From positions 1-32,562 of the forward strand of contig JAMDHS010000139.1 of assembly GCA_029717555.1 (NCBI GenBank): a stretch of DNA of 32,562 nucleotides. The letters run 5' to 3'. A program made the translations under genes and the position numbers. The notes below the pieces were generated by a model. The model made no database searches. It was not told the origin of the DNA and worked only from the letters and a program-made list of their open reading frames with translations. Each line of letters starts with the position of its first letter. Positions within the stretch are counted from its first letter, which is position 1. Positions 22,526-28,966 of this stretch are shown here, one piece after another. This DNA comes from Peribolospora baueri (Eukaryota > Basidiomycota > Peribolosporomycetes > Peribolosporales > Peribolosporaceae).

Positions 22526-24868
22526 TCACAGAGCGACGACGACGCCCGCAGCCACCAAGCCAAGCAGGGCCGTCATCAGGCCGAGGTGATGACCGGCGCT
22601 GTCCCCGACGGCCCCGGCGTTCTTTCCGTCTACCGATCCAATAGACGACGGACTGCTTCCCCCGGACGTGGTGGAGCTGGAGTTCGCAGGCTTCCAAGAG
22701 GCTGCAATTATCTCGGCCGCGATCTCTGCGATGCCGTACGTTGGCGCCATGAGGTGGGCGGAGATGCTGAGCGGGACCACGCTGGCGTCCACGACGCGCA
22801 CATTCTTCGTCCCGTAGACGACCATATGCTCGTCTACCACGCCACCCAAATTCCGCGGCAGCATCGAAGAGGTGGCGGCGGGATGGAACTCGGTGCCGAT
22901 GACGGTGCGCAGCCAGGTCTCCCAGTCCGCGTTGGTCGACACAGCACTTCCCGGCTGTGTTTCGGTGCCGAGGATAGTGGAGAGAGGGGCGGTCTCAGCG
23001 ACCTTGCGAGCCATCTGGAGGCCTGCGGACAACAGGGTCAAGTCGGAGGCCGATTCCAAGTAGTGCGGATCGATAGAGGGATAGTCGAAGGGGTCATTCG
23101 AGTTGATCGCCACGCTGCCCCGGCTGAACGGCCGCTGGAGCGCTGCCTGCACCTGCACGGTGCCGGTGGAAGTGAGCGAAAGCAAGAGCTCGATAGGGGC
23201 CACCTGGGTGGTGAGGATCTTCTCAACCGTCATGTTGTATTGCACTTGGTAACCGGCCTTGACAGTGTCGTCGGCGTTCAAAGCGTTGACGGCGGTCGTC
23301 ATGTTCCCTCTTGCCTGATTGAGGAATTGGTTCGCCGCGTTCTCACCGCCGAGGAGAGTGGAGAGGTTGGGGTAGGCGATGGCAGAGTTGACGTACGACG
23401 CCTGCAACGTGTCCTGCAGGAACGAAGAGTTGGCCGTCTCGCTCGTCGTCGTCCAGGAGACCGAGGTGCTAAGGTGGTCCTGCAGGTTCATTCCCACCCC
23501 AGGCAAGTCGAGGAGAACGTCAACATTGGCCGCGTTGAGCACGTTGCTAGGGCCGATTCCGGAGAGCTGGAGGATCTGAGGCGTGTTGACAGAACCACCT
23601 GCACCGAAAGAAGAACCATTTTAAGACGACGATTCGATTGGGCTTTGGCATCGGAACGACAGGGTCGTGAAGATGTACGTACCGGAGACGATAACCTCGC
23701 GCGAGGCGGTCACGTTGACGCGTGGTGCGCCGGAAGAGGAGGCGAACTCGACGCCAGACGCGATGAGAGTGCCGGAAGTCTCGTTGAAGAGAATCCGGGT
23801 CACCATTTGCTCGGTGAGGATGGTCAGATTAGGGCGGTCATAGGGGTCGATGTAGCCGCTCAGAGAAGTGGAGCGAGTCCTAGACACCGGAAAAGGCAAG
23901 CACAAAGGAGAAGATTCAGAGCGAAGCTCAAGGTCGAGAGCGCGGAACATGTGAGTCGAGCCCTCAGCACTCACCAGTTGCTGGGGTTGATCGCGCTCGT
24001 GGTGACAAAGGCACCAAAGGACTGACCGCCATCAGGGCCGGGGCTCGTCTCCACGCCGACGCCATTCAAAGTTTGAAACCAGAGGCCCACGGCGGGCATC
24101 TCGTAGCCGGGGTAGGAATAGTGTATCGGACCACTGGTACCATGGTTTTCGGCAAGGTAGTGTATGTCGACCACGTCCACTACGCTCGACGTCGGGGGCG
24201 TGAACGTCTCTGACTTCTTCATCGCTGCGAGCATCTTGTCCCAGCTCCAGGTGTCGTTCGCCGTGGGGGTGCCCACGAGGTCCACCCACGCTTGCTGCTC
24301 GATTTCGGAATGACGGACGAGGTAGAGGCCGTTGATCGCCGAGCTGCCTCCGAGCACCTTGCCGCGGGGCCAGCTGATGTTCCGGTTGTCAACGTTGGGC
24401 TGTTGGACGGTCATGTATTGCCAGTCCTGGGCCGTGCCCGTCCGCGAGTTGAAGTATGAGCCGAGGGGCTGGTTGATCGAGTTGGCCACCGTAGCGTTGC
24501 TGTGCGGATTGATGCCGGCTTCGATGACGGCCACGGTCACCGAAGAATCCTCGGACAGGCGAGAGGCGAGCGCAAGGCCTGCCTGGCCTCCTCCGGCGAT
24601 GACATAGTCAAAGCTCTTGCCTACGTGCGACGAGAGACGTGGATTCGGGTCAGCCTACGAGTTTGAGCATTGGCATGCTGGAGGCGTGGCAGAAAGCAAT
24701 GGCGAGCTCACCGGCCACCTGACTCCAGTCCGTTGTGGTGCTTCTCCGCACTCGCTCGTTGTCCCACATGCTTCGGGCGTTCGTCGGCGTGTAGGTGGCC
24801 CCCACGGCGGACATGGCGGCGGAAGCGCCGGCGAGGGCAAAGCCGAAAGAGGTCAAGAGGGAAGGCAT
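22526..24868 (-). CDS. Secreted, probably GPI-anchored GMC oxidoreductase
   Basis: GMC flavoenzymes oxidise alcohols or sugars with FAD; secreted fungal members (aryl-alcohol oxidases, glucose oxidases and dehydrogenases) make H2O2 or reduce quinones. Exons 24868-24712, 24620-23975, 23879-23683 and 23598-22526 give 690 residues. A signal peptide begins MPSLLTSFGFALAGASAA. The FAD-binding motif GGGQAG is at about 62-67 in FDYVIAGGGQAGLALASRLS. GMC signature 1 is PRGKVLGGSSAINGLYLVRH; signature 2 is GGSVNTPQILQLSGIGPSNV. The catalytic His is expected at about 572 (GTEFHPAATSSMLP) and the partner His at about 615 (ISAHLMAPTYGIAEIAAEII). Several N-x-S/T sites are visible. The C terminus has a Ser/Gly-rich linker, then a hydrophobic end (LGLMTALLGLVAAGVVVAL), which suggests a GPI-attachment signal. 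Substrate cannot be told from sequence. Confidence 0.93.
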
Positions 24869-26143
24869 GCTGGTGGTAGTGGACGATCCGCCCAACAGGA
24901 GACACTCGGTGCGGTGGCCGATCGAATGGAGCAATTGCGATGCAATCAGCTCGCGCGCCAGAGATGGAGGCTAGCTGACCAAATACGAGGCCGCGAGCGT
25001 CGTGAGATAGACAGTGATATGACTCTGGAAGCGCAGCCCGTGCGTAGCGAGTGTGGTGTTCGTCCCTGTCTGAAAAAAAGAGTGTCTGTACGAAAAAGAA
25101 AGGGAGAGAGGAGGGGGTAAAGGGGACAAAGGCCGGGATGAGCGGCGAGCCAGCTGGTGAAGAGCGAAGTCGAAAAGGTGCTGTGGAGAGAGGGGTGAGC
25201 GAGCGACGAAGAAGCACGAGTACAGCCAAGACGACGGCCGGAAGGACCTTGATGGTTCCGAGGCCGGCCGACGACATCGATGGGATCAGTTCACGCCAAG
25301 GACATGCCGAGGTATGCGGGCTCCAAGGGGGGTTCCTTTCTTGTCACCATTCAGGGTGGATGATTTCACGGCGGGAGGAAGAAGAGGGAAAGGTGAGACC
25401 ATCTTACCGAGCTAGATCATAGTAGATCAGAGCAAACCGGCCTCGGCGACCTCGAAAAGCGCATGCCGAGCGATCTACCACCGACTTGGCTCCGCTCCGC
25501 ACCAACACAGCCAGAAGCGGATACATTCGCTCCAAGAACGGCAAAGCAAGTCTTTCCGCTACTTAATAAATAGAGATCGCGAAGCCGCCTGGGCTCGACG
25601 TCAGAGCACAACGACGGCTAGAGGATCGTACGCCGCTGAGACCAATGCCGACGATCCGAGCACCCGATCGACTGCGCGACTTCTTCCGAGCAGCCGACGG
25701 AGTGATGCCTGTCCAAACCGCGTTCCCGGCGCAGACGGAGTCGTGCGCACATCCAACTCCCGCGCCCGCCAAGCTTCAGTGTCGGGTTGAGGGGGACGCG
25801 GGCCTAATCGTCCGCCGACGTCGACCAGGGCTCCTTCCGCATGCGTGACTTCCCGAGCTTTGTGCTTCCGTAGGCAGTGGATGCGCGTGTAGTAGACAGA
25901 CTAAGAGCCGGTCGGCATGGTCGATTCATAGCGCATGCGAACTCGCCATTTAATAATTCAAATTCGTGCTGTTTGCACACTGCCCTCCTAGTAACATTGC
26001 ATCCTACGGATCCGGTTTAAGTGAGAAGAGAGGAAGAGATATTAGAGACATACATACACGGACAGATACAGACAAAGTAAGAGAAAGGCCGAATGTACGT
26101 CCAATATAACGATCCAAGAGCGGGACAGCGGAATGGATGGAGA
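24869..26143. other. 1.3-kb intergenic region upstream of GMC gene
   Basis: It holds the GMC promoter and the 3' UTR of the repeat-protein gene. A minus-strand frame starting at an ATG near 25277 encodes a hydrophobic N terminus (MSSAGLGTIKVLPAVVLAVL) but has no splice-supported continuation, so I do not call it. No tRNA or other RNA gene was recognised. Confidence 0.5.
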
Positions 26144-28302
26144 TTACAAGTCGTAGCTAGTGATGGTGTCGAGGCCGCCCTTGTTGAGGTTCTTGCCACC
26201 AGCGCCGCCGAAGCCGCCAGCACCGCCGTTGCCACCGACAGCGACGCCAGAGCCGCTGCCGACGCCGCCGGAGAAGCCCTTGCCGCCAGAGGAGTCGCCG
26301 GAGGCCAAGTTGTGACCCGAACCGCCCTTGCCTCCTTTGCGGCCGTCGGCGATCTGCTTCGCCTCAGCGTTGCCGGAATTGTTACCCTTGTCGTTACCAT
26401 TACCAGAGAAGTTGGACTCCTGGTTGCCGGAGCCGAGCATGCCGCCGTAGCCGAGCAGGTCGCCCTCCTCACCACCACGGCGTATCAGGTCAGTGACGGT
26501 GGCGTTGATGGGAGCGTTGACTGGCACATTGACGCCGACGGGGAGGATGCCGACGTCGCCGACGTCGACGGCGCCGACGGGGAGGATGCCGCCGTGGGCG
26601 ACGTCGATGCCGCCGTGCGCGACGTCGACGGGGATGCCGCCGTGGGCGACGTCGATGCCGCCGTGCGCGACGTCGACGGGGATGCCGACGTTGCCAACGT
26701 CAGTGACAGGAACCCCGACGGGACCGACGGGGGCGTTGATGAGCGAGCCCGGGGTTTCCAGTTTGGCGGCCGGGGTGGACAGGTCCGGCGTGAAGGTGTC
26801 CGGGGCTGGATTAGCAGCGCCCGGGGGCGGATAAGAAGGGCCCTGGAATCGAGTAGCAGCGCTCCGGGCTGGGGAAGCAGCGCTCGGGGTTGGAGAAGCA
26901 GCACCCGGGCCTGGAGAAGCAGCGCTCGGGGTTGGAGAAGCAGCACCCGGGCCTGGAGAAGCAGCGCTCGGGGTTGGAGAAGAAGCACCCGGGCCTGGAG
27001 AAGCAGCACCCGGGCCTGGAGAAGCAGCACCCGGGCCTGGAGAAGCAGCACCCGGGCCTGGAGAAGCAGCACCCGGGCCTGGAGAAGCAGCGCCCGCGGC
27101 CAGAGAGGGGTAGGTAATGGTCCCCGAGTTGCCGTCATTGCCGGACGCATGAGCATGGCCGAAGTCGTTGCCGACGAAGCGGCGAATGGACAACCTAGTC
27201 GCCGGGGTCGCTGGCGTCGCTGCGGTTGCCGGGGTCCCCGAGGGCGGGCAAAGCGTTATCACCGAGTTGCCGTCATTGCCAACCCAGTCAGCGTGGTTGA
27301 AATCGTCGGCTGCAAAGTTGCGACCCTGGAGACCGGGGGAGGTACTAGGCAAGAGGCTGTACGGGACGCAGGCAGGGTTGTTGGGGTCGTAGGAGATGAC
27401 CAAAGAGTTTTGGTCGTTGCCAGACTCGCCCAGGTCAGTAAAGTCGGAGGCAGCGACGGAGCGCTTGTTGTAGGTGGGGTAGTAGGTGTTCAGGCCGCCA
27501 ATGTTGAGGTTCTTGCCGCCCCAGCCTCCAAAGCCACCCTTGCCGCCATTACCTCCAATAGCGGTGCCAGAGCCAGAGAAAATTCCACCGCCCCTGCCTT
27601 TGGAGCTAGAGAAGCCAGCGGCCTTGTTGTGGCCAGAGCCACCCTTGCCACCCTGAGATGGAGCAAATTCAGGCGTGTAGGAGGGTTGGAAACAAACGTC
27701 AGCAAACAGAGGCCTTCGTAAGAGGGCCGTAACTTACGAAGGCCGTGGCAAGAGAGTGCAAGGAGGAAGGCGCTACCCACCATACCACCGTTGGCGGCCT
27801 GCATCGCCTTGGCGTTCCCAGAGCCGTTGCCGTTGTCATTGGCGTTGCCAGAGAAGTTGGACTGCTGGTTACCCGAGGCGAAGGGAGCGCCATCCTCACC
27901 GCCGCGCTTGACGTAATCGTAGTCAGACATGTTCAGGCCACCCTTGTTGATGTTCTTACCGCCGAAGCCACCCCCGCCGCCATTACCGCCATTGCCGCCG
28001 ACGGCAGTGCCAGAGCCGGAGAAGACACCACCCGATCCGTATCCCTTGGCCTTGTTGTGACCGGAGCCGCCCTTGCCTCCCATTCCGCCGTTGGCAACCT
28101 GCTTCGCCTTGGCGTTGCCCGACTTGTTGCCCTTGTCGTTGCCATTGCCGGAGAAGTTGGACTGCTGGTTTCCAGAACCGAGGCCAAAAGAATCTTCGTC
28201 ACCACCCCGGGCGGAAAGTCTTCGCTCCACGAGCACGGGGCGAGCCGAAACAGAGAGGGCTACGGCCATAACGGTAAAGGAAAGGACTGAAGAGGAACGC
28301 AT
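26144..28302 (-). CDS. Secreted Gly/Asn-rich repeat precursor with dibasic (Kex2-type) sites
   Basis: Not assigned to a named family. Exons 28302-27781 and 27652-26144 give 676 residues. A signal peptide (MRSSSVLSFTVMAVALSVSA) is followed by dibasic sites at about 27-28 (RR), 132-133 (KR), 236-237 (KR), 331-332 (RR) and 565-566 (RR). Three Gly/Asn-rich modules begin at or just after such sites (about 32-131, 134-235, 567-676). Each opens with GG[ED][ED], then SGNQ[QE]SNFSGN, [KR]GGKGGSGHN or similar, a GSG[TV]A[VI]GGNGG stretch, and GGKN[IL]N[KI]GGL. Between modules 2 and 3 lie three copies of a second motif (DF...GND.NS..I), eleven 7-residue Pro/Ala/Ser units and two 16-residue VDVAHGGI units. 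Kex2-processed repeat precursors such as Ustilago Rep1 have this architecture, which is the basis for the inference. Possible roles include a cell-wall or surface peptide; none is shown. A TATA box lies 94 bp upstream. Confidence 0.85.
26582..26677. repeat. 48-bp tandem duplication in coding sequence
   Basis: Two adjacent near-identical 48-bp units encode VDVAHGGIDVAHGGI plus P or L (residues about 500-531). Within each unit the VAHGGI motif occurs twice, so the array itself grew from a shorter unit. Confidence 0.88.
26861..27091. repeat. 21-bp tandem array, 11 units, coding
   Basis: Eleven in-frame 21-bp units encode AASPGPG, AASPTPS and variants (residues about 362-438). Five consecutive AASPGPG units are followed by ASSPTPS, then alternating GPG and TPS types, so a 42-bp higher-order unit is visible. 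Low divergence suggests a length-variable linker. Confidence 0.9.
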
Positions 28303-28966
28303 CTTCGGTGGAGGATCAGGAGATGAGAGGAGAGGGGAGGACAGGTGGGATAGAGGTGAGGGATGGAGAGACCAAAGCAAGCCGGTGCCAGTCGTCTTTA
28401 TAGAAGTTGTCCGCGGAGATGCCCGAGCTAGATGAACGCTACCAGACATCTTGTCATTCGAAAGCGGCAAGGGAACTCTTGCGTGGATTTGTCGATAAGA
28501 AGAAAGCGGTTAAGGAGGTCTCCACAAAAGCGCAAGTCAGCGGAGCCGGGTAGCAAGACCTCGACGGAATCGGCTGTAGGAAACCTTGGAGCGTTGCAAA
28601 CACGAGATGAGTACCTGTAGAGACAAAAATGAATGCATCGGACGTGTGACCCAGGAGCATCTCGTTCGAAAGCGTTACGAATCGGAGGCTGGTGTGATGC
28701 GTCGGAAGTGGATGGTCTCAAGCGATTGGGATGGACACTATGGCGCTTGCGTGCATCAGTCCCGGCACGTGGCTGGGCGCTCATAGCCGGAGAAAGCCGT
28801 CCATGCGGATGCGGACAGGCGCGAGCCAGCGAGTCGTTCTTGCCTTTCCTTGCCTTCTGACACCACCTCGCAATCTTGCTCTCGTAGGAGGGGTTCTCTC
28901 CCTCGCATCGCAGGCAGACCGTACGTACTCGTTGTCCGGAAGAGCGCACCAAAACACAGACCCAAA
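28303..28966. other. Divergent intergenic region, repeat precursor / GLO3
   Basis: This 664-bp interval holds both promoters. A TATA box for the minus-strand gene is at 28396-28402. No TATA box is evident for GLO3, and no additional gene was recognised. Confidence 0.6.
28396..28402 (-). promoter_or_regulatory. TATA box of the repeat-precursor gene
   Basis: On the minus strand the sequence reads TATAAAG, 94 bp upstream of the ATG at 28302. The spacing suits a core promoter of a strongly or conditionally expressed gene. Confidence 0.6.

Follow-up and report, generated by a model that had tools for sequence, protein, structure and literature searches.

Rep1 of Ustilago maydis, a protein of 652 aa with repeats lying between Kex2 sites and a role in surface fibrils (PMC4617103, PMC8528282), is the described system closest in plan to the locus reported here, and its products are given as ten peptides of 35–53 aa and one of 228 aa (PMC4617103). 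Ece1 and CA0365 of Candida albicans are polypeptide precursors with repeats and Kex2 sites that have been likened to Rep1 (PMC2515848). For KEPs in general, two surveys provide working rules. According to Le Marquer 2019, a KEP has a signal peptide and no membrane helix and yields at least four fragments at KR/RR, at least three of them similar, the C-terminal fragment being excluded from the first count (PMC6339444); RK is not a site under these rules. Umemura 2020 looks for at least three repeats of 8–100 aa between KR, KK, RK or RR (PMC7329392), and Vogt et al. likewise accepted RK in their initial screen (PMC9769878). Two or three motif types are carried by 79 of 1193 KEPs (PMC6339444), and basidiomycete yeasts have been reported to give longer KEP peptides. 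Furthermore, GpRIC of Geosiphon (Gly/Asn-rich with KR sites) and AGL of Glomeromycotina (PG-rich, with Pro/Gly/Ala tandem repeats) are both described as disordered (PMC8786786).

Here, we describe a gene for a predicted 676-aa protein in a window of 32,562 nucleotides, i.e., the whole stretch of Peribolospora baueri DNA that was analysed (contig JAMDHS010000139.1). The protein resembles Rep1 in its predicted secretion, its length, its repeats parted by Kex2 sites and a single long fragment, predicted at 232 aa as compared with 228 aa in Rep1, and the choice of Rep1 as analogue in the initial annotation was apt with regard to the overall plan. The two differ, as judged from the description of Rep1 rather than from a sequence comparison, in that Rep1 consists of 12 amphipathic repeats of 34–55 aa, whereas two unrelated module families occur here, one hydrophilic and of about 100 aa (A), the other of about 46 aa (B), and the long fragment precedes the last repeat. 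Modules A thus lie outside the Rep1 type in both length and character; B1 and B2 (46 and 45 aa) fall within its range as far as size, the one property compared, is concerned. In common with KEPs in general, the protein has repeats bordered by Kex2-type sites, preceded here by a putative signal peptide, and it shares with Ece1 and CA0365 a likeness in plan for which no sequence resemblance is claimed. The sequence kinds found in GpRIC and AGL, again compared by description, belong to separate proteins there but to one chain here.

Gene model and genomic surroundings

The two-exon gene model extends on the minus strand from an ATG at 28302 to a stop codon at 26144–26146, and its features are collected in Table 1. 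We infer that the predicted intron (27780–27653; borders GTGGGT...CAG) is spliced out, which leaves module A2 gap-free at the junction when compared with A1 and A3. It includes a branch-like motif, CTGAC, with its A 47 nt upstream of the intron end. GTAAGT, an alternative donor inside the intron, was rejected for the main form as its use would break the frame and give a 203-aa product. A perfect 12-bp inverted repeat with a 10-nt loop (27711–27744) overlaps this alternative donor and might influence donor choice; a search across the window for a second exact copy of the repeat found none. At the N-terminus, the signal peptide proposed earlier was recognised by eye and by hydropathy, and the 676-aa protein is presumably secreted.

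Table 1. Predicted features of the precursor gene, listed from upstream to downstream (window positions).
Feature	Position	Strand	Basis
TATA-like box TATAAAGA, 100 nt upstream of ATG	28395..28402	-	pattern match only
Signal peptide, aa 1–20	28243..28302	-	inspection; hydropathy mean +1.32
Short pro-segment, aa 21–32; sites VERR (P1 R28) and LSAR (P1 R32)	28207..28242	-	sequence
Module A1, aa 33–133, C-terminal YVKR	27904..28206	-	sequence, alignment
Module A2, part one (exon 1), aa 134–174	27781..27903	-	sequence, alignment
Predicted 128-nt phase-0 intron within A2	27653..27780	-	sequence
Module A2, part two (exon 2), aa 175–238, C-terminal YNKR	27461..27652	-	sequence, alignment
Module B1, aa 239–285, C-terminal LQGR	27320..27460	-	alignment vs shuffles
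Module B2, aa 286–332, C-terminal LSIRR	27179..27319	-	alignment vs shuffles
Module B3, aa 333–358	27101..27178	-	alignment vs shuffles
11 heptads, AASPGPG / AASPTPS type, aa 362–438	26861..27091	-	repeat analysis
Val/Ile-rich array, DVAHGGI(P) repeats, aa 481–563	26486..26734	-	repeat analysis
Module A3, aa 567–676, after LIRR, up to stop codon	26147..26476	-	sequence, alignment

Codon bias was strongest in modules A (Nc 33.0, as against 38.7 for the whole gene and 41.5–53.4 for stretches of three neighbours), but low complexity could account for these low values, which consequently carry no weight as evidence. The strand opposite the repetitive exon has a 546-aa stop-to-stop frame (26081–27721, plus strand), which we regard as a by-product. 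Pfam matches were obtained for four of the ten ORFs scanned among the 42 listed in the window, namely WD40, ArgJ, GMC oxidoreductase and ArfGap, the last scoring just under its cutoff. The GMC oxidoreductase gene (22526–24654) adjoins on the same strand; its 22526–23620 part gave the Pfam match and, as best PDB match, an oligosaccharide dehydrogenase/glucose oxidase. There is no evidence tying this neighbour to the precursor gene.

Two module families and two arrays

The initial annotation had proposed three copies of a Gly/Asn-rich module, each beginning at GG[ED][ED] and the first two extending to the next dibasic site, and all of this was borne out. Pairwise identity of the three copies amounts to 67–74% at the protein and 67–73% at the DNA level, and the alignment scores of 333–366 (shuffle means 93–98) were reached by 0 of 1000 shuffles in each of the three pairs. 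The protein has three GG[DE][DE] motifs in all, starting at residues 33, 134 and 567, and A1 and A2 end in a dibasic site each (Table 1). Gly makes up 33–35%, Asn 10–14% and hydrophobic residues about 16% of the modules, which contain nine (A1), six (A2) and seven (A3) Lys residues and no inner KR or RR. According to NG86, dN/dS amounts to 0.228/0.827 for A1–A2 and 0.227/0.810 for A1–A3, while YN00 gives a weaker ratio for A1–A3 (0.279/0.483). This points to constraint on the A protein sequence, the strength of which depends on the method, and by the same measure the copies look old with their protein sequence kept. Shared N-glycosylation sites were also considered as a feature of family A and dropped, since the two sequons common to all copies are no more than expected by chance (P = 0.19).

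Between A2 and the heptads we found family B, a second set of three copies sharing DF-x6-GND[GQ]NS that had gone unnoticed before. B1 and B2 align with a score of 50 (shuffle mean 21) and B2 and B3 with a score of 59 (mean 20), both reached by 0 of 5000 shuffles; for B1 and B3 the score of 44 (mean 19) was reached once in 5000 (P = 0.0002). A common origin of the B and A families received no support in any of nine comparisons (P 0.23–0.90). The only two cysteines of the whole protein lie in B1 and B2, one in each.

The B modules are followed by the Ala-Ser-Pro-Gly heptads, the Val/Ile-rich array and finally A3. The initial description of two spacer peptides was hence too simple, as the spacer is composed of modules B1 to B3 plus one Pro/Gly and one Val/Ile array. 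The seven AASPGPG copies among the heptads are identical in DNA, and judged from this identity the array is young or homogenised, in contrast to the old-looking A copies. The Val/Ile array is built on a 48-bp unit (2.2 copies, 98% matches), terminates in GVNVPVNAPINATV and, by hydropathy, exceeds every other part of the mature protein in hydrophobicity.

Homology searches covered Pfam, the PDB and viral and prokaryote collections, and their negative outcome therefore says little about fungi. No Pfam match was obtained for the whole protein (E ≤ 1) or for five pieces of it (E ≤ 10), and no PDB match for A1, the one module searched there (E ≤ 1). The A alignment matched 192 stretches of viral contigs and 369 of prokaryote genome contigs, none of which was a relative by tblastn. 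Six module strings had no match in open-licence paper text, and no description of the module emerged among the matches listed by keyword searches of that literature.

Kex2-type sites and predicted products

KR or RR is found at residues 27–28, 132–133, 237–238, 331–332 and 565–566. All five sites listed in the initial annotation are thus present, the third at 237–238 instead of 236. Only 0.96 such sites are expected (P = 0.0011, 20,000 shuffles). Counting all dibasic pairs gives six and a weaker P of 0.031, owing to a single RK (612–613) inside A3 that the earlier list did not contain. Outram et al. described an expanded Kex2 motif, LxxR, together with a P4 preference (PMC8528282). With LxxR included, the protein has nine P1 Arg, as compared with 1.59 in shuffles, and nine was reached in 0 of 50,000 of them. 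All six modules start immediately after the Arg of a KR/RR or LxxR site (A1 LSAR/GGDE, A2 YVKR/GGED, A3 LIRR/GGEE, B1 YNKR/SVAAS, B2 LQGR/NFAAD and B3 SIRR/FVGND), whereas shuffles placed at most two of six starts in this way; the A edges in this count follow from homology alone, those of B were drawn with knowledge of the sites. Both shuffle tests assume independent sites, while the modules are duplicates and the YVKR and YNKR tails may represent one inherited site. The remaining three P1 Arg lie no more than six residues upstream of A1 or B3, and the interiors of the modules and arrays contain none of the nine. The Kex2-type sites immediately preceding A1 and B2 are of the LxxR form and had been missed earlier.

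For cleaved Kex2 sites, Bader et al. reported an enrichment of acidic residues at P1' and P2' and, moderately, at P4' (PMC2515848). In agreement with this, P4' is Asp or Glu at all three A starts; P1' and P2' are Gly-Gly, unlike the residues enriched in that study. The proposed release of the modules by Kex2 is, in summary, well supported by the number and placement of the sites, and we consider cleavage of the precursor probable on this sequence evidence.

In the proposed pathway, a Kex2-type protease in the Golgi would cut the secreted precursor into separate peptides, from which Kex1 would trim the C-terminal Lys and Arg. Predicted products, given with average masses for unmodified peptides with trimmed basic ends, are A1 (99 aa, 9281.6 Da, pI 9.31) and A2 (103 aa, 9680.1 Da, pI 9.70), both basic, the mildly acidic A3 (110 aa, 10111.5 Da, pI 5.15), the acidic B1 (46 aa, 4699.0 Da, pI 4.05) and B2 (45 aa, 4555.9 Da, pI 4.13), and a fragment of B3 with the Pro/Gly and Val/Ile arrays (232 aa, 21220.1 Da, pI 4.43).

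Measured against the survey rules, the protein would, on our reading of them, fall outside both KEP definitions, since only two A fragments are non-C-terminal and the A fragments exceed 100 aa. Its five KR/RR sites yield six fragments and its N-terminus is hydrophobic, as judged by hydropathy only. Counted by eye, the similar fragments are two with A, the third being C-terminal, and two bearing B, in place of the three looked for by Le Marquer 2019. Between dibasic sites, the A1 and A2 fragments measure 103 aa each (29–131 and 134–236), above the upper limit of Umemura 2020, and A3 would be divided at its RK. Going by the published rules rather than by the survey scripts, both surveys would skip this protein.

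Competing readings and biological meaning

We favour, with moderate confidence, a precursor of the Rep1/KEP kind that Kex2 would process into several peptides for the hyphal surface or matrix. A rather unlikely but still serious alternative is that the Gly/Asn/Pro-rich chain stays whole in the cell wall or matrix, with Kex2 removing only the short pro-segment at the N-terminus and the inner sites being shielded or incidental. In favour of this reading, predicted Kex2 sites of secreted proteins frequently remain uncut and are no proof of cleavage, as among 20 named predicted substrates considered by Bader et al. 12 were cut and eight were not (PMC2515848), and the protein has eight potential N-glycosylation sequons, some of them in every A module. 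The confinement of inner KR/RR and LxxR sites to the fronts of modules speaks against an uncut protein, as does the chance-level sharing of two sequons by all A modules (P = 0.19).

Less probable still is strict equivalence to the Rep1 repellent, i.e., a precursor whose peptides assemble into surface-active amyloid fibrils, as those of Rep1 do (PMC8528282, PMC4617103). The amyloid-like resemblance suggested initially found no positive support in modules A, with their 33–35% Gly and about 16% hydrophobic residues; hydrophobic stretches sit in the Val/Ile array, and to a lesser extent in B, rather than in A. Being hydrophilic and longer than the Rep1 repeats, modules A do not lend themselves naturally to amyloid repellency. 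Structure models of A1 aligned with A3 (two sequences; pLDDT 46.5) and of B1–B3 (33.6) were too poor to count either way.

A role as precursor for cyclic, modified peptides of the dikaritin/ustiloxin RiPP type, or for signals resembling pheromones, is highly improbable and was set aside on account of unit size and the lack of a visible UstYa gene: HxxHC, which we take to be a mark of UstYa, occurs in six frames of the window as three single motifs, far apart and without a pair, and the UstYa-type (DUF3328) family was absent from the ten scanned of the 42 listed ORFs, a scan that extends only 4.3 kb upstream of the gene in the window and in which introns could conceal a gene. The putative signal peptide, the repeats and the Kex2 sites have counterparts in such precursors, but the four-residue cores described for them are far shorter than the units of 26–110 aa found here (PMC7329392).

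Returning to the Kex2-processed precursor, the released peptides would serve, in the reading we prefer, as structural, disordered or self-associating parts of the hyphal surface or the extracellular matrix, in the manner of the Ustilago Rep1 repellents. This role is tentative, and we would place it slightly below an even chance. In Coprinopsis, no phenotype was detectable when kep genes were knocked out (PMC9769878), which counts against a strong role. A more speculative option, to which we give little credence, follows from the opposite charges: the basic A1 and A2 and the acidic B1, B2 and B3-arrays fragment, pictured as disordered peptides supplied in fixed ratio by one gene, could, after cleavage by Kex2, co-condense into a two-component extracellular coating.

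The precursor is best described as one that would behave as a KEP near the edge of the KEP working definitions; it belongs to a known kind, as long KEP peptides and multi-motif KEPs have already been reported. If it is cut as predicted, published KEP surveys can overlook precursors with long modules or C-terminal repeats. It would then also add a precursor of mosaic build, with protease sites portioning out its arrays and its two module families of unrelated sequence, and would broaden what is known of the ways in which fungi produce surface or matrix peptides, within an already known mechanism.
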